NCBI GenBank assembly: GCA_040756055.1
Contig: JBFLZR010000001.1
Location: 189,849-253,848 of the forward strand
Origin: Candidatus Zixiibacteriota bacterium
Lineage (GTDB): Bacteria; Zixibacteria; MSB-5A5; GN15; FEB-12
DNA length: 64,000 nucleotides
Direction: 5' to 3'
Position 1 is the first letter of the stretch. Each line of letters starts with the position of its first letter. The position numbers and the translations under genes are program-made. The notes beneath the pieces were generated by a model that was not told the origin of the DNA, made no database searches, and was given only the letters and a program-made list of their open reading frames with translations. Below are positions 11,442-27,409 of this stretch, one piece after another.

Positions 11442-12797
11442 ATGGATCTGATTAAATATCTGTCCGCGACCGTCTTCACTCCTTTGTACGACCTCAAGGA
11501 GGGGCGCAGGGTGGGCCGCGAACTCAAACACCTTTACAAGAGTCAGCATTGGTCGGCCGAGCGAATTCGCGATCGGCAATTAGCCCAGTTGAGAGAGATG
11601 ATTGATTATGCAGTAGCACACTCGGCATTTTATAGAAGGGCTTACGGTAGCGCCGGCGTTGGGGCAACTGACATAACGTCCCTGAGCGACATCAGCAAAT
11701 TCCCGGTTCTAACAAAAGACGATATCAGGGCAAACCTGAATGACATGGTCTCCGACGAATACCCGCCCGCGACTCTCTTTGCCAAGCGCACCGGTGGCTC
11801 CACTGGAGTGCCACTGCGGCTGTACGTTGACAAGGAGGCGATGACACTTAAACTCGCCGCGACCAGAAGACATAACAGTTGGGCCAACTACCGAACCGGC
11901 GACAAACTCGCCGCCATCTGGGGTGATACCGACAAGAAATACTCATGGAAAGAGCGGTTGCTGAACAGTCTGATCTATCGGACTATTTACCTGGACACGC
12001 TCAAGCTGGACGAGGCTTACATGCTGGACTTTGTCGCAAGAGTAAAGAGATTTAAACCGTCGGTACTGATGGGACACGCCCATTCTCTGTATGTATTCTC
12101 GCTGTTTGCAGAGGAAAACGGTATTTCCGATCTGCCATTTCAAAGCATAATCTCGACATCGGAGGTTCTCTATGATTCCGAGCGCGCAAAGATCGAGGAG
12201 GTTTTTGGTCCAATAGTGTTCGATAGATATGGCTGTGAAGAACTGAGCATTGTTGCATCCGAGTGCGAAAAGCACGAGGGTCTTCACATAAACGCCGATG
12301 GGCTCTATGTCGAAGTGATAGGTGGCGATGAAGTTAACCCCGGAAAACTCGTAATAACGGATCTGTGGAATTATGGGATGCCGCTGATTAGATACGAGGT
12401 GGGGGATATGGCCACGACAATTCCAGCCCCGTGCCCCTGTGGACGAGGGTTGCCACGTCTGGGTAAAGTCTACGGACGCACCTCCGATTTTTTGATAACG
12501 CCAGAGGGCAAAATGATATCCGGAATCTCGATTCTGGACACGTTCACGATTCACGTCCCCGGCGTGAAACAAGTTCAGATAGTCCAGGACCAGATCGATG
12601 AACTCGTGTTCAAAGTTGTCAAAGGCCCCAATTTCGGCGATATTTCCATCCAGACGATCAGTGAGAAGGTCCCGACGTTTTTTGGTCGGCGGATGCGGCA
12701 CAAAATCGAAATTGTTGAAACGATTCCACAGACTGCACGGGGTAAATACAGGTTTTCGATATGCAATGTTCCGTTGCGCGGCAATCGCGGGAACTGA
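11442..12797 (+). CDS. CapK/PaaK-like adenylate-forming enzyme
   Basis: This 451-residue protein lies 7 bp after the preceding gene. It has the adenylate-forming signature of the phenylacetate-CoA ligase/CapK group: AKRTGGSTGVPLRLY (ATP loop), DRYGCEELSIVASEC (the Y-G-x-x-E motif) and GRTSDFLITPEGK (hinge). CapK-like enzymes are frequent in capsule and exopolysaccharide clusters, where they are thought to activate a small carboxylic acid for attachment to a sugar. The acyltransferases of the minus-strand arm are obvious candidates to use the activated acid. The substrate is unknown; a true catabolic phenylacetate-CoA ligase is unlikely in this setting. Confidence 0.75.
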   Translation: MDLIKYLSATVFTPLYDLKEGRRVGRELKHLYKSQHWSAERIRDRQLAQLREMIDYAVAHSAFYRRAYGSAGVGATDITSLSDISKFPVLTKDDIRANLNDMVSDEYPPATLFAKRTGGSTGVPLRLYVDKEAMTLKLAATRRHNSWANYRTGDKLAAIWGDTDKKYSWKERLLNSLIYRTIYLDTLKLDEAYMLDFVARVKRFKPSVLMGHAHSLYVFSLFAEENGISDLPFQSIISTSEVLYDSERAKIEEVFGPIVFDRYGCEELSIVASECEKHEGLHINADGLYVEVIGGDEVNPGKLVITDLWNYGMPLIRYEVGDMATTIPAPCPCGRGLPRLGKVYGRTSDFLITPEGKMISGISILDTFTIHVPGVKQVQIVQDQIDELVFKVVKGPNFGDISIQTISEKVPTFFGRRMRHKIEIVETIPQTARGKYRFSICNVPLRGNRGN

Positions 12798-16323: not shown

Positions 16324-17471
16324 CACCACGAATCACCATTGCTTACATAATAGATACCATTGCCACTTCTTCGGCCGGTACGGAAAAGCAACTGCTGCTG
16401 CTGCTTAATAATCTCGATCGCGGCAGGTTCAGTCCGCACCTGATCTGCCTGCGCGGTTCAAAGTGGCTCGATGAGAACAGACTCGGCGTGCCGGTTACCG
16501 TTCTGGGACTCAAAAGTCTCGCCTCATTCTCTGCAGTTAGGGCCTTTTTGCAATTGCGGAAATATGTCAGGAAGAATGAAATCGAGATAATACAGACGTT
16601 TTTCGTCGATGCTAACCTGTTTGGCACCGTGGCAGGTTTTTTTTCGCGGGTGCCGGTCATTGTATCCAGCCGGCGAAATGTCGGTATGGGCTACTGGCAC
16701 ACGCCCATGTGGCTCAGGATCCTGCGAGTGTTGCGGCGCATGACAACCTGCTATATCGCGAACTCGAAATTCACGGCCAATTACTCCATCGATGTCGAGC
16801 GGCTGGACCCGGCCAGGGTGCACGTTGTTTACAACGGCCTCGATTTTGAGAAATATGAGCGGCTGAATAAAGACTTTCGGCGGCAGTGCCGAGAAGAACT
16901 TGGGATCACGGACAAAGAAATACTTATCGGAATCGTAGCCAATCTGCGTAAGATAAAAAACCTTTCCCTCTTTGTGGAGGCAGCTCGTATTGTCCACGCC
17001 GGTCATCCGGACACCAGATTCGTCATGGTTGGCGAGGGTGAAGAAAGGGGCGCGCTGGAGAGTAAAATAGGAGACTACGGGCTGACCGAAGTTGTGAAAT
17101 TGACCGGTCAGGTGACCGACCCCCTGCCTGTACTGGCGGCTATGGATATCGCGGCGCTGTGTTCTAAAGGGGAAAGCCTTTCCAACTCGATAATCGAATA
17201 CATGGCCTGCGCGCTTGCGGTGGTGGCCTCGGATGTCGACGGAAATCGCGAGGCTCTCGGCGAAGGGAACGGGCTTTTATTCAAGAGCGGCGATGAAAAG
17301 GATTTTTCCGAAAAGATTGAACAGCTTATATTAGATCCTGAGATGAGGAAACAACTCGGGCAAAAGGCAAGAGTCCATGCTCACAAGACTTACGGGCGCG
17401 CCGCCGCGCTCAGGCGGCATCAGGAGCTGTATGAGCGCTATGCCTCCAGCGGGGCTTTTACGAAACGATGA
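16320..17471 (+). CDS. Glycosyltransferase family 4
   Basis: This 383-residue GT-B protein is translationally coupled on both sides through 4-bp ATGA overlaps. N-terminal glycine-type loop: SSAGTEKQLLLLLNNL. Donor domain: VANLRKIKNLSLFVEAA, VGEGEERGALE and the E-x7-E motif ESLSNSIIE, followed by VVASDVDGNREAL. It should act late in repeat-unit assembly with its two neighbours. It is the third of three glycosyltransferases in the locus, consistent with a repeat unit of about four sugars if an initiating transferase lies elsewhere; no initiating phosphoglycosyltransferase is visible in the window. Confidence 0.9.
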   Translation: MTPRITIAYIIDTIATSSAGTEKQLLLLLNNLDRGRFSPHLICLRGSKWLDENRLGVPVTVLGLKSLASFSAVRAFLQLRKYVRKNEIEIIQTFFVDANLFGTVAGFFSRVPVIVSSRRNVGMGYWHTPMWLRILRVLRRMTTCYIANSKFTANYSIDVERLDPARVHVVYNGLDFEKYERLNKDFRRQCREELGITDKEILIGIVANLRKIKNLSLFVEAARIVHAGHPDTRFVMVGEGEERGALESKIGDYGLTEVVKLTGQVTDPLPVLAAMDIAALCSKGESLSNSIIEYMACALAVVASDVDGNREALGEGNGLLFKSGDEKDFSEKIEQLILDPEMRKQLGQKARVHAHKTYGRAAALRRHQELYERYASSGAFTKR

Positions 17472-18049
17472 GAAAACTACTTAAGTTGATAAGCAAGGGG
17501 ATTGCCGTTATTCTGGTCTCGCCGTTAATTCTGGCAACCTGGGCAGGTTTATATCTTCTGCGGAGTGAAAGGATTTTTATTGGCTGCGCTCAGTTGGTGA
17601 GCCTGGTCCCTGATTATATCGGCACCTATCTCAGGGTTGCCTTTTACTCGTTTACCTTGAGTGAATGTTCGTTCACCGGCCACATCATGTTTGGCTCCTA
17701 TATTTCCAAACAACAGACGAGAATAGGCAGGAATTTCTACATTGGGGCGTACAACATTATCGGATTGGCCGATATCGGTGCGAATGTGGTGATTGCAAAC
17801 AACATCAGTATATTATCCGGCCGCAGGCAACACAACTTTGACGATCCATCAAGGGACATCATGGACGGACACGATAGTTTCAATCGTTTGCGCATAGGTA
17901 ACAACGTGTTTATCGGCGACCGCACCGTAATAATGGCCGATATTGGCGATCATTCGATTATTGGAGCCGGAAGTATTGTCGTCAAGGAGATTCCACAATA
18001 TTCGGTAGCAGTGGGCAATCCGGCCAGAGTTGTCAAAGAGCGGGGCTAA
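17468..18049 (+). CDS. Hexapeptide-repeat O-acetyltransferase (left-handed beta-helix)
   Basis: This 193-residue protein starts with an N-terminal hydrophobic helix (residues 10-30) that may anchor it to the membrane. Left-handed beta-helix repeats follow (IGRNFYIGAYNIIGLADIGANVVIANNISI), and the C-terminus is characteristic: NNVFIGDRTVIMADIGDHS, SIIGAGSIVVKEIP, VAVGNPARVV. This is the pattern of WcaF/maltose-O-acetyltransferase-like enzymes that use acetyl-CoA. The His in GRRQHNF is placed like the catalytic histidine of the family. It closes the plus-strand arm and probably O-acetylates a sugar of the glycan. Confidence 0.88.
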   Translation: MRKLLKLISKGIAVILVSPLILATWAGLYLLRSERIFIGCAQLVSLVPDYIGTYLRVAFYSFTLSECSFTGHIMFGSYISKQQTRIGRNFYIGAYNIIGLADIGANVVIANNISILSGRRQHNFDDPSRDIMDGHDSFNRLRIGNNVFIGDRTVIMADIGDHSIIGAGSIVVKEIPQYSVAVGNPARVVKERG

Positions 18050-18332: not shown

Positions 18333-20801
18333 ATGTTTACTGGGAAAATTAAGACGGGACGGTTATCGATACGAACTCTCGTTCTGACGGGGATCTTTAT
18401 TGGACTAGCCGTGCCGGCATCACTTGATGCCCGGCAGGTAGTAATAGGGTCAAGTGACCTTCCCTATACGGCATCGACCCCCTACGACACAATTACTTTT
18501 AACTCCAGCAGAATCAGCACGACAGGAAGTGGAATATATGTTACGGCCAATAATGTCACGATTGACCTTCAAGACGACACACTCGAATTTGGAACTGGTA
18601 ACGGTGACCGCGTCTACGGCGTCTACACTTCTTACCATAGGACCAACCTGAACATAATCGGGGACCCCGTAAATCATGGGCTGATACTACACGGTGGAGG
18701 AACAGTTCGGGCTGATTCGGTTTACAACTGTCGCAATGTCCTAACGCTTGGTGGTTTGACCAGGGATATTACGATTCAATTCGTCGACATGCAGATTAAT
18801 GGCTGGAACACTCACAACTATTCGCATGCGGATGGCACGATAAGCAATCTGACTATATCTGATTGCAGGATAATTAATCACGGTCATGGATTCACGAGCA
18901 GATGTTCGTTCGATGGGGCGGCAATTTATCTGCCGGCCAATTCCACTTTGGGGGCGACAATAACCAACTGCTATGTCGAATCGTATCATGCCGCTGTTTA
19001 TTTGTCGGGCAAAGCGGAAATCGCGTCATGCACCCTCATGGTGGATGCAAAGAATGACCTTTATTATCCTGGCGACCCGTGGGACCAGGTCTGCTATACA
19101 TCGGCTAATGCGATTGCCATATCTACGTGGATACTATCACCGGGCACGTCTTTTCACGATAACGTGATACTGTCGGGTGTGGAAAACGAGGGGTGCGATG
19201 GGGCATTTCTAATATGTTATGCAGCGGGTACGGAGGACAACCCCATATCAATCTACAATAACGAAGCAATCATCCATCGCGGAAGGGATGACCATTACGG
19301 GGCCTATCTTACCGCAAAGGGCTACAAGCAAAGGTGGAGCAACAAGCATGTAAAGATTTACAACAATCAGTTCACTGTGGTCGGTCATAGCAACCATCCT
19401 CTCTACCCCAACGCTTACAACGCAACCGTTGAGGGGATGGCCATGTTGTTCATTGACCAGTTCCACGGTTCTGAGGGACAATTCTGCGATAGCTTCGTAA
19501 CTGTTGAGAACAATCGAATTCTGGCAATTGACAGCGGAGGGGCTACCGCTTCTGGTTATAACATCTGTATCAGGGGCGAGAACACAGGTTATAATTGGCA
19601 AAGTGCCGGCAATATTTGGCGGAACAACTACTTCGAAGCATCCGACCTTGGCGGTAAGATTGGCTATCCTGATGGCGGTAAGTGTATCAATTTCCTGAGT
19701 CAGGGTGATACTCTGTTCGCGTTGTCGCAGGTATTTTACGCGTTTGATATCGGCGACTGGAATGGGCCCTGTACCGCTAACGTTATTAGGGACCTAGTCT
19801 ATTCGCGGGGCGCGCCGGAGGATGACCTCGACTGGGATATAAATGCCGCCGGAAGTGATATTTCTTTTGAGCGAACTCTTCGGGTCTTTGCCAGGGGTAC
19901 CAATGACCTCGGTGTGGCGGGAGCCGCTGTCTCGGTCTGGAATAACTACGGGAATCTTGTATATTCCGGCTTTACCAACTCATCCGGTTTGGATACGGCA
20001 TATATCAAATATGACCACGAATTCTACAGTATAGCCGACTCCACTTCGTTTAACGATTTCACAGTCAGGGTGTCCAAGGACGGCGATGACAGTACGATAG
20101 TGATGACGATTGACGGCCTGTCTTCGAAATCGCAGTTATCGCCAACGTTGGGACTGAATATGGATGGTACGGGCGACACAACCGTAATCTCTGACGACAC
20201 CACCCCTCCATCGGCGCCCGATTCGCTGAAGGCGGAGCAGGGGACTCTACAGGGGTCAGTTGAGCTTGACTGGCTGGCCCCCGGTGATGACGGTACAATC
20301 GGGACTGCCACCGGGTATCAACTGATGTGGTCATCGCAGCCGCTTAATGTGGCGCTCTGGAACGATGCCACCACGCTGTGGAATCCGAAGCCTTATGGGC
20401 AGCAGGAAGAATATACCATTGCCAGCTCACCGCCAATCGGGGAGCTTTATGTTTATCTTCGGGCTTTTGACGAAGTTCCCAATTATTCCGCGGTTACATC
20501 CATTGTTCCTTTCGGAAGCGGGGATATTGCCGATACGGGAGATGACGCCTTCATTGTTCACTACTCCCCCAACCCGGTGCACTTTACGCAGGGGGAGTAT
20601 GTTACTTTTACGCTGCCACAGCAACCGGTGGATTTGTTGATTCAGACGGTATCTGGTGAAACGGTGGTTCTGATGACCGGGGTCTCTGGCGAGTGGCGGT
20701 GGAACGGCACGAATGCTTCTGGAAACCGGGTGGCGACCGGAGTCTATTCGTGGTTCGTGCCGGGGACAGATCAAAACGGTAAAATAGTTGTAAAGCCTTA
20801 G
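18333..20801 (+). CDS. Secreted right-handed beta-helix protein with FnIII module and C-terminal sorting-like domain
   Basis: This 822-residue protein begins with a signal peptide (LVLTGIFIGLAVPASLDA, ending near residue 34). About residues 60-480 consist of parallel beta-helix-like coils rich in N, T and I, with phrases such as NVTIDLQDDTLEF, NLTISDCRIINH and TITNCYVESYHAAVYL. This is the pattern of pectate-lyase-type carbohydrate-binding or carbohydrate-cleaving proteins. A fibronectin-III-like segment (PPSAPDSLKAEQG to VYLRAFDEVP) follows. The last 90 residues (YSPNPVHFTQGEYVTFTLP, then WNGTNASGNRVATGVYSWF and GKIVVKP) match the style of T9SS type A or FlgD-like C-terminal domains. Its position behind the glycan locus suggests a surface protein that binds or processes that glycan. 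Confidence 0.75.
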   Translation: MFTGKIKTGRLSIRTLVLTGIFIGLAVPASLDARQVVIGSSDLPYTASTPYDTITFNSSRISTTGSGIYVTANNVTIDLQDDTLEFGTGNGDRVYGVYTSYHRTNLNIIGDPVNHGLILHGGGTVRADSVYNCRNVLTLGGLTRDITIQFVDMQINGWNTHNYSHADGTISNLTISDCRIINHGHGFTSRCSFDGAAIYLPANSTLGATITNCYVESYHAAVYLSGKAEIASCTLMVDAKNDLYYPGDPWDQVCYTSANAIAISTWILSPGTSFHDNVILSGVENEGCDGAFLICYAAGTEDNPISIYNNEAIIHRGRDDHYGAYLTAKGYKQRWSNKHVKIYNNQFTVVGHSNHPLYPNAYNATVEGMAMLFIDQFHGSEGQFCDSFVTVENNRILAIDSGGATASGYNICIRGENTGYNWQSAGNIWRNNYFEASDLGGKIGYPDGGKCINFLSQGDTLFALSQVFYAFDIGDWNGPCTANVIRDLVYSRGAPEDDLDWDINAAGSDISFERTLRVFARGTNDLGVAGAAVSVWNNYGNLVYSGFTNSSGLDTAYIKYDHEFYSIADSTSFNDFTVRVSKDGDDSTIVMTIDGLSSKSQLSPTLGLNMDGTGDTTVISDDTTPPSAPDSLKAEQGTLQGSVELDWLAPGDDGTIGTATGYQLMWSSQPLNVALWNDATTLWNPKPYGQQEEYTIASSPPIGELYVYLRAFDEVPNYSAVTSIVPFGSGDIADTGDDAFIVHYSPNPVHFTQGEYVTFTLPQQPVDLLIQTVSGETVVLMTGVSGEWRWNGTNASGNRVATGVYSWFVPGTDQNGKIVVKP

Positions 20802-21135: not shown

Positions 21136-22098
21136 TTGAAATTTGATAAGAATAGTCTCAAAATCGATGCCGCTGCCGTAAGCGAACAGCTGGCAGAGAC
21201 CATTCGGACACAGATCCGTAGCACACTGCGCAAAGCGGGCGCGGTAGTAGGCATTTCTGGAGGTATCGATTCATCGGTCGTGCTGGCTCTGTGCGCCAAA
21301 GCGTTGGGCCCAAAACGAGTCCTGGGAATTATGATGCCCGAGACCGATTCATCGCCTGACTCCCTCACCCTGGCACGCCTTCTGGCTGACAAATTCGGCG
21401 TGGAAACCGTGGTCGAAAATATCTCGGCGGGTCTCGATGGACTCGGGTGCTACCGCCGCCGCGATGAAGCTATCCGTCAGGTCTTCCCGGAATACGACAA
21501 CCGCTACAAGAGTAAGATCGTGATTCCGACCAATATCCTGGAAAAAGAGACATTCAATTTCTTCAGCCTGACCGTGGAAACACCCGACGGAGAGGTTATG
21601 ACCCGACGCCTGCCCCTTGGAGCCTATCTCCAGATTGTGGCTGCTTCGAATCTCAAGCAACGGCTGAGAATGACCACCCTCTACTACCATGCCGAAAAGC
21701 GTAATTACGCAGTCGCCGGCACAGGCAACAAAGATGAACATCAGCAGGGATTCTTCGTCAAATACGGCGACGGCGGCGCCGATCTCAAACCTATCGCCCA
21801 TCTGTTTAAAATACAAGTTTACCAGCTGGCGGAAGCCCTGGGTGTCCCTGACGAGATACTAAAACGAATTCCTACAACTGACACATATAGTGCCGGGTGC
21901 ACGCAGGAAGAGTTCTTCTTTGGTCTGGACTTCTATCGCATGGATATGCTCTGGTACGCCATGGAACACAATGTGCCTGCCGAAGAAGCGGCGAAGGTGA
22001 TGGACCTGACCCCGGAGCAGGTAGAGAGGGCCTATGCGAATATTCAGCGCAAGATCGACGCAACTGAATATCTGCGCATGGCTCCGCTGGAAATCTAG
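21136..22098 (+). CDS. NadE-like ATP pyrophosphatase/amide synthetase, copy 1
   Basis: This 320-residue protein starts at TTG 21136, behind AAGGGGAA. It has the NAD synthetase fold motifs: PP-loop SGGIDSS (residues 41-47), ASNLKQRLRM, AGTGNKDE, and KYGDGGADLKPIAHLFKIQVYQLAE then IPTTD. It lacks the N-terminal glutaminase domain, so ammonia or another amine would be the nucleophile. Compared with bacterial NH3-dependent NadE as I recall it, there is a segment of roughly 40 extra residues around VFPEYDNRYKSKIVIPTN-ILEKETFNFF, and the loop after PTTD (YSAGCTQEEFFFGL) differs from the usual ADL...DE-LG pattern. The second copy at 24004 shares both features. Housekeeping NAD synthesis is possible, but the ACP and ligase next door suggest another acid substrate. 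Confidence 0.75.
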   Translation: MKFDKNSLKIDAAAVSEQLAETIRTQIRSTLRKAGAVVGISGGIDSSVVLALCAKALGPKRVLGIMMPETDSSPDSLTLARLLADKFGVETVVENISAGLDGLGCYRRRDEAIRQVFPEYDNRYKSKIVIPTNILEKETFNFFSLTVETPDGEVMTRRLPLGAYLQIVAASNLKQRLRMTTLYYHAEKRNYAVAGTGNKDEHQQGFFVKYGDGGADLKPIAHLFKIQVYQLAEALGVPDEILKRIPTTDTYSAGCTQEEFFFGLDFYRMDMLWYAMEHNVPAEEAAKVMDLTPEQVERAYANIQRKIDATEYLRMAPLEI

Positions 22099-22143
22099 TC
22101 TGACGATAACGATAATAATCGATATAAGAGGTTTGTATCAATT

Positions 22144-22401
22144 ATGGCAAGCACCGAAGATATCAAGAAATCCCTTAGAGAATTCATCACCGAAACCTTC
22201 ATGATCGGTGATGAGAGTGAAAAACTGGGTGACTCCGATTCCTTCATGCAAAATGGAATTATAGACTCAACCGGCGTTTTGGAACTGGCCTCATTCATTG
22301 AACAGCAGTACGGTTTCTCGATTGAAGATGACGAAATGACGCCGGGAAATCTGGATTCGCTGAATAATCTGGTAAGTTACGTTTCCAGGAAGCTGGGCTG
22401 A
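22144..22401 (+). CDS. Acyl carrier protein
   Basis: This 85-residue acidic protein has GAGG upstream of ATG 22144. The phosphopantetheine attachment motif is GIIDSTGVLEL, with Ser42 in the D-S-T/L position, and helix II is followed by SFIEQQYGFSIEDDEMTP, typical of discrete ACPs from non-ribosomal and glycan-associated pathways. It is not a fatty-acid-synthesis ACP by context, since no fab genes are near. It lies between a NadE-like enzyme and an AMP-forming ligase, which would load an acid onto its pantetheine arm. Confidence 0.9.
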   Translation: MASTEDIKKSLREFITETFMIGDESEKLGDSDSFMQNGIIDSTGVLELASFIEQQYGFSIEDDEMTPGNLDSLNNLVSYVSRKLG

Positions 22402-22444
22402 CGAATGCCGGCGCGGATTGCCGGCCTTTCAGCGGTTTGACGTC

Positions 22445-23974
22445 ATGAAAGTATTCGATCTTCTCAGGTCAAGCGCGGGGCAATATCCTGACAAAATAGC
22501 CGTGACTCATCACGAGCGACAAGCCACTTTTGGGGAAGTTTTTGACTCCTCCCTGTCCCTGGCCGCTCGTCTTAAGGAAATCCTGCCCGAAAAAGGGCAG
22601 CGGGTCGCTATCCTTATCGAGAACTCTGTTGAATATGTTCAGGCCTTTTTCGCGGTGTTTGCCGCCGGGCATGTCGCGGTTCCACTGGATACCTCCCTCG
22701 ACGCTCAGAGCCTGCGCTATATCACTACCGACTGTCAGGCGCGCGTACTTATCACCAGCGCCAAATTCAGGCGCACCATTCCCGATATCCTCGCGCAGGA
22801 CTCCCAGGTTAAGCTGGTCATCTGCGACAAACAGATTTCTGTTGGCCGCCATGATATCCCGGTAGAACTGCTAAGCGACATATTCTCATCGAAAAGACGA
22901 TATCAGGACAACACGGTCGAAATAGATGAAAACGAGCTGGCGGCCATTTTTTACACGTCAGGCTCGACGGGCAAATCAAAGGGCGTCATGTTGTCACACC
23001 GCAATTTGGTCTCAAATACAATAGCGACTATCGAATATCTAAAGCTGACCAACGATGACGCCGTGATGGTCATCCTGCCGTTTTACTACATCTATGGTAA
23101 TTCCCTGTTATTAACTCATATCGCCTGTGGTGGAAGGCTGGTTATCGACAATCGCTTCATGTACCCCGAGGTCGTGCTGGACACTATGGAACAGGAGAAG
23201 GTAACCGGCCTGTCGGGTGTACCATCCAATTTCATGATTCTGCTGGCCAATTCCACCTTCACCAAGCGCAAACTCGAATCACTTCGCTATTTCACCCAGG
23301 CGGGCGGCGCCATGGCGCCGGAGATTGTAAAGCGGCTGATGGACGCTTTCGGGCACAAAGAAATTTTCATCATGTACGGCCAGACTGAAGCCGCTCCACG
23401 AGTGTCGTATCTTCCTCCCGAGAGGCTTAAAGAAAAACTGGGGTCTATCGGCATCCCCGTCCCCGGCGTGCGGATGGCGGTGGTAGATGATGACGGCAAC
23501 GAACTGCCGGTTGGCGAAGTTGGCGAAATCATGGTCACCGGCCCAAACGTCATGCTCGGCTACTGGAATCAAACGGATGAGGAGAACGATGTTCTCCGCG
23601 ACGGTCGCCTGTTCACAGGGGATCTGGCACGAATGGACAAAGACGGATATTTCTACGTGGTTGGTCGCAAGAAGGAAATCATCAAGACCGGCGGCAACAG
23701 GGTAAGCGTTAAGGAAGTCGAAGAATGTATCCTCGAGTGCGAAAAAGTGCTCGAGGTAGCCGTATTCGGTGTCCCGGACCCTATTCTGGGTGAGGCTATA
23801 AAGGCAGTCATCGTCTTAAACAACGGACAACAAGCCGAGAGTAAAGAGATATCCGATCACTGTCGAATCAGGCTGGCCAGCCATAAGGTTCCGAAATTGA
23901 TCGAGTTTGCCGGTTCTCTTCCGAAGCAGAAATCCGGAAAGATAGATAAGATGAAACTCAAGAGCGCAAAATAG
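22445..23974 (+). CDS. AMP-forming acyl/aryl-ACP ligase
   Basis: This is an ANL-superfamily adenylating enzyme of 509 residues from ATG 22445; an in-frame TTG at 22418 would add nine. I prefer the ATG because KVFDLLRSSAGQYPDKIAV is the normal family start. Motifs: FYTSGSTGKSKGVMLSHRN (ATP loop), MYGQTEAAP (Y-G-x-T-E), TGDLARMDKDGYFYVVGRKKE (hinge region) and the C-terminal lysine in PKQKSGKIDKMKL. All catalytic elements seem intact. It closely follows the ACP gene, so I infer that it activates a carboxylic acid and loads this ACP. The acid cannot be deduced. Confidence 0.85.
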   Translation: MKVFDLLRSSAGQYPDKIAVTHHERQATFGEVFDSSLSLAARLKEILPEKGQRVAILIENSVEYVQAFFAVFAAGHVAVPLDTSLDAQSLRYITTDCQARVLITSAKFRRTIPDILAQDSQVKLVICDKQISVGRHDIPVELLSDIFSSKRRYQDNTVEIDENELAAIFYTSGSTGKSKGVMLSHRNLVSNTIATIEYLKLTNDDAVMVILPFYYIYGNSLLLTHIACGGRLVIDNRFMYPEVVLDTMEQEKVTGLSGVPSNFMILLANSTFTKRKLESLRYFTQAGGAMAPEIVKRLMDAFGHKEIFIMYGQTEAAPRVSYLPPERLKEKLGSIGIPVPGVRMAVVDDDGNELPVGEVGEIMVTGPNVMLGYWNQTDEENDVLRDGRLFTGDLARMDKDGYFYVVGRKKEIIKTGGNRVSVKEVEECILECEKVLEVAVFGVPDPILGEAIKAVIVLNNGQQAESKEISDHCRIRLASHKVPKLIEFAGSLPKQKSGKIDKMKLKSAK

Positions 23975-24003
23975 AAGAGTTACGAATATAGAAAGGAAGT
24001 CAC

Positions 24004-24996
24004 ATGAAGCCGATACGCGACCTTCTCAAAATAGACCCCAGGCTCGAAAGCGCCACCGTCGTGGATTTCATGGCAGCACAATTAAAGGGAACACCCAAGA
24101 GAGATGGAATTATTGTGGGCGTCAGCGGGGGTATCGATTCGGCCGTGGTTGCCTCGCTGGCTGTTGAGGCCATCGGCAGGGACAAAGTATATGGCCTGAT
24201 ACTGCCCGAAAAAGAGTCCAACCCGATTTCGGCCCAATACGCCCGCAAGATCATCGACAAACTTGGCATAAAGCACCACACGGTTGATCTGACCGAGGCA
24301 GTGGGCAGTTTCGCCGCTTACAAAACGCGCGATGATGTTATCAAGAGCATTTTCCCCGAATACAATGAAAGCTACAAATTCAACATCTATCTGCCGCAAA
24401 ATCTTCTAAATGTCGACCGTTACAATTTCTACACCCTGCGCATCGATGACGGCAAGGGCAATCACAAGGAGAAAAGGCTGACCAAACAGCAGTTTCTGGC
24501 CATCACCTCGGCGGCCAACGTCAAAATCCGCTCGCGCATGATAGCGCTTTATTTCTGGGGCGAGCAAATGAACTATCTGGTCGCGGGCACAACCAACAAG
24601 ACCGAGTTCCTGTTGGGTGATTTCTGCAAGTTCGGCGATGGCGGCACGGACGTGGAAGCTATATCGCATCTGTACAAGTTGCAGGTGTATCAGCTCGGCG
24701 AGTATTTCGGCGTCCCCAAAGAGATAATCGACAGAACGCCAAGCCCGGATACATTCAGCCTGCCGGTTTCCGATCAGGATTTCTATTTCTGTTTGCCTTT
24801 TGACGTTCTCGACCCGCTTCTGTACGCGTGGGAGTATAAGGTCGACATCAACCAAGTATCGAAAGAACTGGGCCTTACTCCCGATCAGATTAAGCGTGCT
24901 TATCGTGATTTCGAGTCCAAGCACACTTCCACCGAGCACATTCGCCAGTTGCCTTACGCCATCGAACGCGATTGGCCGGCCTACCTATCGAAATAA
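24004..24996 (+). CDS. NadE-like ATP pyrophosphatase/amide synthetase, copy 2
   Basis: This 330-residue protein has AAGGAAG before ATG 24004. The PP-loop SGGIDSA occupies residues 41-47. Further motifs are AANVKIRSRMIALYFWGEQ, GTTNKTE, KFGDGGTDVEAISHLYKLQVYQLGE and TPSPD. It shares with copy 1 the extra segment (IFPEYNESYKFNIYLPQN-LLNVDRYNFYTLRIDDG) and the altered loop after P-x-x-D (TFSLPVSDQDFYFCL), so both belong to one subfamily apart from textbook NadE. No glutaminase domain is present. It ends the module at a strong terminator. One of the two may still make NAD; the other may be specialised, or both may amidate ACP-borne acids. Confidence 0.75.
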   Translation: MKPIRDLLKIDPRLESATVVDFMAAQLKGTPKRDGIIVGVSGGIDSAVVASLAVEAIGRDKVYGLILPEKESNPISAQYARKIIDKLGIKHHTVDLTEAVGSFAAYKTRDDVIKSIFPEYNESYKFNIYLPQNLLNVDRYNFYTLRIDDGKGNHKEKRLTKQQFLAITSAANVKIRSRMIALYFWGEQMNYLVAGTTNKTEFLLGDFCKFGDGGTDVEAISHLYKLQVYQLGEYFGVPKEIIDRTPSPDTFSLPVSDQDFYFCLPFDVLDPLLYAWEYKVDINQVSKELGLTPDQIKRAYRDFESKHTSTEHIRQLPYAIERDWPAYLSK

Positions 24997-25026
24997 GCAC
25001 GCTATTGGCGGCGACACAGCCTTCTA

Positions 25027-25051
25027 GGCGGCCCTCGAGGCCGCCTTTTTT
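25027..25051 (+). terminator. Rho-independent terminator after the NadE-ACP-ligase module
   Basis: A perfect 7-bp GC stem, GGCGGCC (25027-25033) and GGCCGCC (25039-25045), encloses a 5-base loop and runs straight into six T residues (25046-25051). It lies 31 bases after the second NadE-like gene and separates the module from the nucleotide-sugar genes. Confidence 0.9.
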
Positions 25052-25091: not shown

Positions 25092-25120
25092 TTGACAGGG
25101 CCGTCTCCGGCCGCCAAATT
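25092..25120 (+). promoter_or_regulatory. Candidate promoter of the epimerase-ugd operon
   Basis: TTGACA (25092-25097), 17 bases, then CAAATT (25115-25120), 25 bases before ATG 25146. The -35 is perfect but the -10 is weak. The identical arrangement TTGACA-N17-CAAATT precedes the Wzy-like gene at 10049. The position just past a terminator supports a promoter here. Confidence 0.4.
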
Positions 25121-25145
25121 GGGTGAAATTGTCTTAAGGGAGATT

Positions 25146-26111
25146 ATGCCGGAGTCGATTTTAGTTACGGGGGGATGCGGCTTTATCGGGTCGCACCTTG
25201 TCGATGCCCTGCTGGCCCAGGGGAAACGTGTCACCGTCATCGATAATTTCAACGACTTTTATGAACCATCTATCAAGCGCCGCAACTGCCGGCCGCACCT
25301 GGAATTTGACACATACCGGTTGGTAGAGGCCGACATCAGGGATTCTGAGGCAGTTTCCCGATGCTTTGCCGACGGGCAGTTCAGCGAGGTGATCCACCTC
25401 GCGGCCATGGCCGGGGTGAGACCATCGATCAAAAATCCGGTGCTCTACCAGCAGGTCAACCTGATAGGCACGATGAATCTGCTCGAGGCGTGCCGGCATC
25501 ATTCGGTAAAAAAGTTCATATTTGCTTCGTCATCGTCGGTCTACGGCAACAACAAGAAGGTCCCGTTCTCGGAGAGCGATCCGGTCGATAACCCCATCTC
25601 GCCTTATGCGTCAACCAAAAAGGCCGGTGAGCTGATGGCGTACACTTATCATCACCTCTACGGCATCAGGACCGCCTGTCTTAGGTTTTTCACGGTTTAT
25701 GGCCCGCGGCAGCGCCCGGAAATGGCCATCCACCTTTTCACTCGGAAAATACACAACGGCGAGGAAATCGAGCAGTTTGGCGACGGCGTCTCGCAGCGGG
25801 ACTACACCTTTGTGGAAGACATCGTCGGCGGCATCCTCAGCTGCCGACAGGCGGACTTCGGCTATGAGATAATAAATCTGGGACGTTCCGATACGATTGA
25901 GCTTCGAGAACTGATTTCGAAAATAGAAAAACTACTGAAAAAGACAGCAAAAATAAGAAAAATGCCTCATCAGCCGGGTGATGTTCAGCGCACATTCGCG
26001 GATATCTCCAAGGCTCAGCGCCTTTTGGCATACCAGCCAGAGGTGTCGATAGATGAAGGTCTGGAGAGATTCATAAACTGGTATCTGCGGCAGCAAGGGA
26101 ATAAAACATGA
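25146..26111 (+). CDS. NAD-dependent nucleotide-sugar epimerase (UDP-glucuronate 4-epimerase-like)
   Basis: I choose ATG 25146 because AAGGGAG sits just upstream; an upstream in-frame ATG at 25092 overlaps the probable -35 element. The 321-residue short-chain dehydrogenase has the NAD loop GGCGFIGSHL, IDNFNDFY, SSSSVYGN, the catalytic YASTK (Y-x3-K) and FFTVYGPRQRPEM, all typical of extended SDR epimerases such as UDP-glucuronate 4-epimerase. The next gene makes UDP-glucuronate, and the two overlap by ATGA, so together they would produce UDP-galacturonate for surface glycans. GalE or GalNAc-type epimerase activity is the main alternative. Confidence 0.85.
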   Translation: MPESILVTGGCGFIGSHLVDALLAQGKRVTVIDNFNDFYEPSIKRRNCRPHLEFDTYRLVEADIRDSEAVSRCFADGQFSEVIHLAAMAGVRPSIKNPVLYQQVNLIGTMNLLEACRHHSVKKFIFASSSSVYGNNKKVPFSESDPVDNPISPYASTKKAGELMAYTYHHLYGIRTACLRFFTVYGPRQRPEMAIHLFTRKIHNGEEIEQFGDGVSQRDYTFVEDIVGGILSCRQADFGYEIINLGRSDTIELRELISKIEKLLKKTAKIRKMPHQPGDVQRTFADISKAQRLLAYQPEVSIDEGLERFINWYLRQQGNKT

Positions 26112-27409
26112 ATATATGCGTTGTTGGAACGGGTTATGTAGGTCTGGTGGCCGGTGCTTGCATGTCGGACTTCGGAATGCACGTCATATGTGTCGATCGC
26201 GACGAATCCAAAATCAAAATGCTCAAGAATGGCAAAATGCCCATCTATGAGATAGGCCTCAGTGATCTTGTGCAGCGCAATGTCAAGCTCGGCCGTCTGG
26301 TGTTCTCCAGCGACCTCGAAAAGGCTGTGGACCGCTCCCTGGTCGTCTTTGTGGGAGTGGGGACCCCGGAAAACGACGATGGCAGCGCCAATCTTACGCA
26401 GGTGCGCGAAGTCGTGAGAACGGTGGCCCGAACCATGAACGATTACAAAGTCATTGTCATCAAAAGCACCGTACCGGTAGGCACCGCCCGCGAGCTAAAG
26501 AAACTGATACGGGATAATCTTACCCGTGAGGTGGAGTTCGATATAGTCTCAAACCCGGAATTCCTGCGTGAGGGAGCCGCCGTGAATGACTTTCTCAGAC
26601 CGGATCGAGTGGTAATCGGCGCCGACTCCGAAAGAGCGATGGCTATCATAAGAGACATCTATCGTCCTCTGTATCTTCTTGAAACCCCGATCGTAGGCAC
26701 CACCAACGAAACCGCGGAGATGATTAAGTACGCCTCCAATACCATGCTGGCGCTCAAAATCTCCTTCATCAACGAAATTGCCAATATTTGCGACCGGGTG
26801 GGCGCCGATGTATACAAAGTCGCCACCGGGGTCGGCATGGACAAGAGAATAGGCCCAAAATTTCTCCATCCGGGACCCGGATTCGGCGGATCCTGTTTTC
26901 CCAAGGACATCAGGTCGCTGGTCAACACCGCCGAATCGGTGGGCTATGATTTCCAGCTCGGCAAGTCGGTTCTGAGGGTAAATGAGCGTCAGAAGGAGTT
27001 GATTGTCGAAAAGAGTCGAAAGCTTCTTGACGGCCTTAAAGACAAGACAATCTGTCTGCTTGGTCTGGCGTTCAAGCCGGGGACGGACGATGTTCGTGAA
27101 TCCCCCCCGCTTCATATCGCCCGCAAGCTGCTCGCTGAAGGGGCCAGGGTGCAGGCATATGACCCGGCGGCCATGGATGAAGCCAAAAAAGAGCTGGCCG
27201 AATTGACATACTGCGATGATTACCTGACGGCCGCGAAAGAAGCCGACCTGATAATTATCGCTACCGAATGGCACGAGTTCAGGGATTTGGATTTCGATGC
27301 TCTGAAAAAGAACCTCAGGGGGCTCAATATCTTTGATACCCGCAATATTTATAGTCCGCAGGATGTCCGCAAGCGCGGCTTCACTTATATTTGTACCGGG
27401 CGGCAGTAG
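26108..27409 (+). CDS. ugd: UDP-glucose 6-dehydrogenase
   Basis: This 433-residue protein has the full architecture of the UDP-glucose/GDP-mannose dehydrogenase family: N-terminal Rossmann VGTGYVGLVAGACMSDFG, VGTPENDDGSANL, IKSTVPVGTA, SNPEFLREG, the catalytic Cys in GFGGSCFPKD, and the C-terminal domain with LLGLAFKPGTDDVRESP. It oxidises UDP-glucose to UDP-glucuronate with two NAD+. The ATGA overlap with the upstream epimerase indicates coupled translation. ManNAc dehydrogenase (WecC) is a less likely alternative. The operon ends at the terminator 27435-27470. Confidence 0.93.
   Translation: MNICVVGTGYVGLVAGACMSDFGMHVICVDRDESKIKMLKNGKMPIYEIGLSDLVQRNVKLGRLVFSSDLEKAVDRSLVVFVGVGTPENDDGSANLTQVREVVRTVARTMNDYKVIVIKSTVPVGTARELKKLIRDNLTREVEFDIVSNPEFLREGAAVNDFLRPDRVVIGADSERAMAIIRDIYRPLYLLETPIVGTTNETAEMIKYASNTMLALKISFINEIANICDRVGADVYKVATGVGMDKRIGPKFLHPGPGFGGSCFPKDIRSLVNTAESVGYDFQLGKSVLRVNERQKELIVEKSRKLLDGLKDKTICLLGLAFKPGTDDVRESPPLHIARKLLAEGARVQAYDPAAMDEAKKELAELTYCDDYLTAAKEADLIIIATEWHEFRDLDFDALKKNLRGLNIFDTRNIYSPQDVRKRGFTYICTGRQ

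Follow-up and report, generated by a model that had tools for sequence, protein, structure and literature searches.

Two NadE-like proteins in a putative carrier-linked nitrogen-transfer module of a Zixibacteria polysaccharide locus

Introduction

NadE is the synthetase of nicotinamide adenine dinucleotide (NAD). In NadE chemistry, ATP adenylates a carboxylate and ammonia then displaces AMP, and the single-domain enzymes take ammonia, not glutamine (PMC3376133). The acid substrate of NadE can change, as shown by its relative, the nicotinamide mononucleotide (NMN) synthetase of Francisella (PMC3376133). Here, we analyse a 64,000-nucleotide stretch of a Candidatus Zixiibacteriota genome (contig JBFLZR010000001.1, positions 189,849 to 253,848; hereafter, the window, whose own numbering is used below), in which two NadE-like proteins, A and B, flank an acyl carrier protein (ACP) and an AMP-forming ligase at 21136-25051. 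AMP-forming ligases and AsnB-like glutamine amidotransferases are also found in exosortase-type polysaccharide loci. The text of the 2006 exosortase paper mentions none of these enzymes (PMC1569441), and literature searches found no published account of a NadE-like/ACP/ligase set or of an exosortase with an amidotransferase, nor any paper naming the NF002048/PRK00876 model to which A and B belong by score. On balance, we favour reading the locus as one for surface polysaccharide that includes a carrier-linked nitrogen-transfer module, and not as one for NAD biosynthesis; here, B would have taken over the step of AsnB. The right naming of this subfamily matters, as metabolic models would otherwise credit the cell with a spare NAD synthetase. 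That AsnB has apparently been exchanged for B also gives a handle on the role of the exosortase-type ligase, ACP and amidotransferase genes; if B replaces AsnB, both should yield one and the same product.

Organization of the gene set

The four genes are encoded on the + strand in the order A, ACP, ligase and B, with gaps of 45, 43 and 29 bp, and the list of open reading frames (ORFs) and the sequence agree with the layout given in an earlier note on this DNA. NadE-like A (21136..22098, 320 aa) is an N-type ATP pyrophosphatase (PF02540) whose start codon is the TTG at 21136, where its homologues also begin (MKFDKDSL...). It is followed by the acyl/peptidyl carrier protein (22144..22401, 85 aa; PF00550), with the phosphopantetheine serine in a conserved D-S motif, and by the AMP-forming acid ligase (22445..23974; PF00501 and PF13193). 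The ligase starts at the ATG at 22445, its homologues beginning with MKIFDIL..., while the mechanical ORF opens earlier, at a TTG at 22418. NadE-like B (24004..24996, 330 aa), in which Pfam recognises the NAD_synthase domain as it does in A, is the last gene and appears to take the place of AsnB. A closing terminator had also been claimed, and an intrinsic-terminator-like hairpin is indeed found at the end of the operon (25026..25051, + strand), with an 8-pair stem (7 G-C) and then T5 (25026-25046). The region contains nine terminator-like sites, against a mean of 5.2 in shuffled sequences, and the site at 25026 is the most G-C-rich. A chance origin of the gene set is excluded, because the same order is found in related genomes and the association extends across phyla.

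Relationship of A and B to NAD synthetases

Both proteins score above the curated NF002048/PRK00876 cut-off of 313 bits (468.5 for A and 356.5 for B), a model labelled 'NAD(+) synthase'. Pfam and NCBIfam profile searches bore out the absence of a glutaminase domain on either protein. The alignment of A with B spans 320 residues at 40% identity and has no gap, and both therefore hold the extra segment that the earlier note had described as shared. This insert of approximately 50 residues, which canonical NadE proteins lack in the alignment, lies at about 21478..21630 in A (around residues 115-165) and about 24346..24498 in B, both on the + strand. The AlphaFold models are confident (mean predicted local distance difference test scores of 93.3 for A and 92.4 for B), and in both the insert forms the same three-strand element (125-129, 144-148 and 154-158) directly ahead of a long helix (161-189). 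The loop after P-T/S-x-D is altered, as had been noted, and is fixed within the family of each copy in the alignment. In A (21871..21924, + strand), PTTDTYSxxxTQEEFFFG replaces the canonical PSAGLWxGQTDExxLG, and the equivalent of PSAGLWxGQTDE is PTTDTYSxxxTQEEFFF in A and PSPDTFSLPVSDxDFYF in B.

In E. coli NadE numbering, SGGxDS, R140, T160, E165, K173, D180, K189 and S/T211 are retained in A and B, while T172 is altered in both. Position 261 is Lys in 13/13 canonical rows of the alignment, Leu in 22/23 A rows and Ile in all 15 Zixibacteria B rows. Positions 140, 173, 180 and the conserved H-K pair at 260-261 are presumably contacts of deamido-NAD. Of the pocket, whose conservation the earlier note had proposed to examine, K261 and the substrate loop have thus changed and R140, K173 and D180 have not. 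From the sequence, the ATP/adenylation side of A and B appears to be kept and the acid-binding side remodelled.

In a maximum-likelihood tree (quick search, with support from the Shimodaira-Hasegawa-like approximate likelihood ratio test, SH-aLRT, only), all A and B proteins fall in one clade (SH-aLRT 99) apart from canonical NadE, an outcome in line with the earlier note, which had suggested a comparison with characterised NadE. Within this clade, A (100) and Zixibacteria B (100) form distinct groups, and proteins from Aminicenantes, thaumarchaea and Methanosarcina branch near its base. B as a recent tandem copy of A was ruled out, since B branches near the family's base, together with sequences from Aminicenantes and archaea and apart from Zixibacteria A. 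At loci L130, L131, L132 and L143, from Caldisericota, a Thermotogaceae genome and a spirochaete, the NadE-like proteins take positions on the tree between the A/B clade and canonical NadE. They may represent an intermediate form, and their surroundings encode neither an ACP nor a ligase nor AsnB.

The earlier note had raised the question of a separate nadE. There is one: a different contig of the genome that contains the window (3.3 Mb, 98% complete) encodes a single further NadE, which is canonical and 269 aa long (TIGR00552, 246.5 bits). Canonical NadE is also present in 57/61 genomes of the relative set. A and B are therefore dispensable as the cell's NAD synthetase. Alternatively, A and B could be ordinary NAD (or NMN) synthetases, surplus copies placed by chance in a polysaccharide locus and correctly labelled. 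The NAD(+) synthase name of NF002048, the fact that TIGR00552 is also passed, the retained catalytic residues and the fold are all consistent with this; in Foldseek searches, NadE structures rank first (2e18, template modelling score 0.81 by target length) and the Francisella NMN synthetase 3fiu ranks fourth. However, the separate canonical nadE, the position of A and B outside it on the tree, the loss of K261, the new loop, the insert and the constant ACP, ligase and AsnB neighbours all argue against it. We consider this explanation very improbable, and a duplication of NAD synthetase was dropped as the leading view given the canonical nadE and the conserved context.

Conservation of the module across phyla

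The scan for relatives covered 84,980 species, with one genome apiece. Loci were read with tblastn and profile searches, and neighbours were counted within 8 kb with profiles built for this analysis. Relatives of A and B were retrieved from Chloroflexota, Bacteroidota, Chlorobiota, Ignavibacteriota, Acidobacteriota, Pseudomonadota, Myxococcota, Thermodesulfobacteriota, Fibrobacterota, Aminicenantes, Nomurabacteria and archaea, so that the family spans more than ten phyla. The ligase was encoded near 78 of the 88 family loci, the ACP near 70 and an AsnB-like glutamine amidotransferase, the usual fourth partner, near 49; these are lower bounds, as many contigs are short, and a few loci are one contig fetched twice. 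None of the three was found at 22 control loci of other NadE proteins from the same scan. The linkage of NadE-like protein, ACP and ligase that the earlier note had proposed to look for elsewhere is thus conserved across phyla. Gene content is constant across loci and gene order variable, which argues for a joint function and not for an inherited order. Glycan-locus markers, detected with simple BLAST searches, were found near 38/84 family loci and 0/21 controls.

Named strains whose genome records contain the module include Marinilabilia salmonicolor, Gelidibacter japonicus, Ancylomarina euxinus and Methanosarcina spelaei. The entire module is also present in a contig filed as Bacillus subtilis SK6B4 (L116), with an A protein near-identical to that of a Brucellaceae metagenome-assembled genome (MAG; L119); this is probably contamination or a mislabelled genome.

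The earlier note had held that its reading would fall if both copies clustered among proven NAD synthetases with an intact pocket and had no conserved linkage. That reading withstood the test: what we found was a clade outside NadE, a separate nadE, a partly changed pocket and a conserved linkage. Judging by context, tree and altered residues, the proteins that NF002048 labels 'NAD(+) synthase' are very probably specialised enzymes of glycan loci.

AsnB-like amidotransferases and NadE-like B in Zixibacteria

A family member is present in 37/61 close genomes. B, if present, is mostly encoded approximately 2.95 kb from A, with the ACP and ligase in between. In genomes without B, a protein of approximately 660 aa often follows the module or is encoded near it. 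This protein is an AsnB-like glutamine amidotransferase, with a class II glutaminase (PF13537/PF13522) and an Asn_synthase domain. That of one relative scores 513 bits with TIGR01536 and 450 bits with TIGR03108 (cut-off 817); the range for the AsnB proteins of relatives with the latter model is 395-452 bits. In some draft genomes, AsnB is encoded away from the module. No AsnB-like protein was detected in the window's own genome, where the best match to a TIGR03108-type model reached 36 bits.

Across 132 Zixibacteria genomes, with A told from B by profile score (plus best match for fetched loci), AsnB was found in 46/55 genomes with A only, 2/18 with B and 4/59 with neither. One of the two exceptions with both B and AsnB is a fragmented MAG (G052) and the other a 5.4 Mb MAG with 9% contamination (G111). 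Ignoring kinship, Fisher p is 4e-8 for B against AsnB among genomes with A or B and 6e-13 for A/B against AsnB in all genomes. One genome contains three copies of A and three of AsnB, and the B-bearing genomes are spread over several families. Two genomes, one of these (G090) and one from Aminicenantes (L084), have B in a divergent arrangement that differs from the usual one, with no AsnB nearby. It is likely that B replaces AsnB in some lineages, including this genome. In two same-genus genomes, a NodU-type carbamoyltransferase is encoded a few kilobases upstream of A (L061 7553-9370 and L062 14226-16043); it is not found in the window.

The carrier protein and the ligase

The window ACP scores 20.4 bits with PF00550, slightly below the cut-off of 20.8, and its D-S motif is retained across 72 aligned ACPs. 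The ligase aligned with TIGR03098, the exosortase A-associated ligase model, at 413 bits (cut-off 592), and its top-scoring models are not DltA. In amino-acid adenylation domains, an aspartate holds the alpha-amino group of the substrate. The ligase family shows PFxYxYG in place of that aspartate, suggesting that an amino acid is a less likely substrate than a plain, hydroxy- or dicarboxylic acid.

Proposed reaction sequence and archaeal variants

In the proposed sequence of reactions, the ligase would adenylate a small carboxylic acid and load the ACP with it. Whether before it is loaded or afterwards, the acid would receive nitrogen in two ATP-pyrophosphatase steps. Most lineages would use the AsnB-like glutamine amidotransferase for one of these steps and NadE-like A for the other; here, the ammonia-type B would perform the step of AsnB. 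AsnB or B would form a carboxamide on the acid, and A would carry out a second nitrogen transfer, either to another carboxyl or to the amide itself. For the last step, transfer of the amide or amidine from the ACP to the glycan, the locus would supply an acyltransferase of the hexapeptide, GNAT or MBOAT type.

Archaeal loci offer further combinations. In two Methanosarcina loci, an ACP, a ligase, a WbuX-like ATP pyrophosphatase and a B-like NadE (NF002048, 479 bits) are encoded consecutively, with the WbuX-like gene between the ligase and NadE; the WbuX-like proteins score 119 and 110 bits with TIGR03573 (cut-off 203). In Methanosarcina, a DUF362 ferredoxin-type protein is encoded shortly downstream of the module (L128 10943-12079 and L127 4794-5927). 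A marine thaumarchaeal locus combines a B-like NadE and a ligase with a hexapeptide transferase, a phosphopantetheinyl transferase (PF01648, AcpS) and a small carrier-like ORF. The carrier-like ORF has no Pfam match, and the phosphopantetheinyl transferase gene adjoins it; a working carrier protein would be the natural reading of this ORF. Both Methanosarcina loci thus encode two nitrogen-transferring enzymes, and one was seen in the thaumarchaeal locus. It is conceivable, though doubtful, that bacteria and archaea have in common an undescribed carrier-protein pathway whose two consecutive ATP-pyrophosphatase steps install a pair of nitrogens on a single acid (a diamide, or an amide and then an amidine) ahead of its transfer to a surface glycan, with NadE-like, AsnB-like and WbuX-like enzymes interchangeable and most of NF002048 misnamed.

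A more specific version, in which A makes an amidine, follows how WbuX/PseA-type sugar amidotransferases are thought to act. AsnB or B would form the carboxamide, and A would adenylate the amide oxygen for a second ammonia. The pairing of a WbuX-like enzyme with a B-like NadE, an ACP and a ligase in Methanosarcina points in this direction, as the WbuX-like enzyme may fill the role of A. The archaeal protein, however, stays below the WbuX cut-off, at 110-119 bits against 203, and could be equated with A only by conjecture. We consider amidine formation by A unlikely.

The remodelled acid-binding region and the insert would also fit an amide ligase, with A or B passing the activated acid to some amine that is not ammonia and so attaching the acyl group to an amino sugar or an amino acid. 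Lasso cyclases, for instance, are related to AsnB and make C-N bonds with no ammonia involved, and the module AsnB reaches 265 bits with the lasso-cyclase model, below its cut-off of 525. Nevertheless, B appears to substitute for AsnB proteins with glutaminase domains (PF13537/PF13522), pointing to ammonia transfer, and characterised single-domain NadE enzymes use ammonia (PMC3376133). We regard such a ligase as quite improbable.

Several observations weigh against the preferred reading of a nitrogen-transfer module in which B stands in for AsnB. With R140, K173 and D180 retained, the pocket would be only partly altered. The counts of B and AsnB ignore kinship, and the kinship-aware test within the order rests on three supported independent pairs only, with AsnB opposite in two and no difference in one. 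Nine A-only genomes have neither AsnB nor B, perhaps because they are draft assemblies. Finally, an MBOAT is encoded close to the module in only 6/88 loci.

The surrounding polysaccharide locus

The first 20 kb of the window encode glycosyltransferases, a flippase, GNAT and hexapeptide transferases, a CapK/PaaK-type ligase and a Wzy/O-ligase-like protein (106 bits with the exosortase-associated TIGR03097). The genome's sole exosortase (PF09721, 229.8 bits) is encoded approximately 8 kb upstream of the window with its DUF3485 partner. Its sole MBOAT, flanked by two SGNH-type proteins, lies just upstream of the window, and these genes are more than 20 kb from the module. The hexapeptide acyltransferase at 17468..18049 (+ strand; PF00132), of the type that adjoins the module in archaea, is a candidate for the ACP-to-sugar transfer.

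A UDP-sugar epimerase and a UDP-glucose dehydrogenase, identified by profile matches, follow directly downstream (25092..27409, + strand) and are regarded as context only. They raise the alternative that uronic acids, in a UDP-sugar or in the glycan, are turned into uronamides by the NadE-like and AsnB-like proteins, with the ACP and ligase responsible for a separate acylation. Uronamide formation has reportedly been proposed for WbpS/WbtH-type proteins. UDP-glucose dehydrogenase, however, is encoded near only 5/84 family loci, whereas the ACP and ligase are almost constant. A UDP-uronate linkage was ruled out on this count as a defining trait, and the significance that the earlier note had attached to the UDP-uronate genes is the weak part of its reading. 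Although AsnB-like wbpS proteins do occur in other polysaccharide loci (PMC3684757), we find amidation of uronic acids rather unlikely.

Other genes near the module are recorded here as observations. The second AMP-ligase-like protein, of the CapK/PaaK type (11442-12797), has no Pfam match, and its NCBIfam matches are below cut-off. Directly upstream of the module, 18333-20801 encodes a secreted-looking protein of 822 aa with no Pfam match; its C-terminal stretch resembles the type IX secretion protein PorZ (28 bits), and similar proteins are encoded near the module in several relatives. In Bacteroidota, a family of approximately 290 aa with an HHSTG motif and no Pfam match is found beside the ACP and a DltB-like MBOAT (L129 4761-5621, L101 14911-15828 and L095 14902-15759), and a second, GDSL-like family (L082 7714-8541) holds a similar spot in other phyla.

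Comparison with known systems

Four described systems resemble the module in part. The Dlt system for D-alanylation is alike on paper, with a ligase and a carrier, and several Bacteroidota loci encode a DltB-like MBOAT and an SGNH-like protein near the module ACP. However, the module has two extra nitrogen-transferring enzymes, a non-DltA ligase and a nearby MBOAT only in the few loci counted above, and is probably not a member. The WbuX/PseA-type N-acetyl sugar amidotransferases (TIGR03573) are likewise ATP pyrophosphatases of glycan loci, but the Zixibacteria set lacks any WbuX-like gene. Canonical NadE (TIGR00552) and the Francisella NMN synthetase have the fold, SGGxDS and the adenylation residues in common with A and B, which differ from canonical NadE in their separate clade, their insert of approximately 50 aa, their changed loop and their loss of K261. 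In NF002048/PRK00876, A and B are members by score, whereas context, tree and residues argue against the NAD-synthesis name.

The exosortase A-associated ligase and amidotransferase genes (TIGR03098 and TIGR03108) share with this locus an AMP-forming ligase, an AsnB-like partner and an exosortase in a polysaccharide locus. The analogy drawn in the earlier note to AsnB/ligase/ACP exosortase sets was strengthened, as the fourth member is usually AsnB-like, B appears to take its place and the sole exosortase is encoded close by. The window ligase (413/592 bits) and the AsnB of a relative (450/817 bits) are both below the curated cut-offs, and no protein above the cut-off was found with TIGR03099, the model of the exosortase-linked decarboxylase. 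The exosortase A set differs in that here NadE-like A is a constant extra and B appears to occupy the place of AsnB. The module is probably a variant of the ligase/ACP/amidotransferase sets of exosortase-type loci, with a near-constant NadE-like member that has probably been misannotated.

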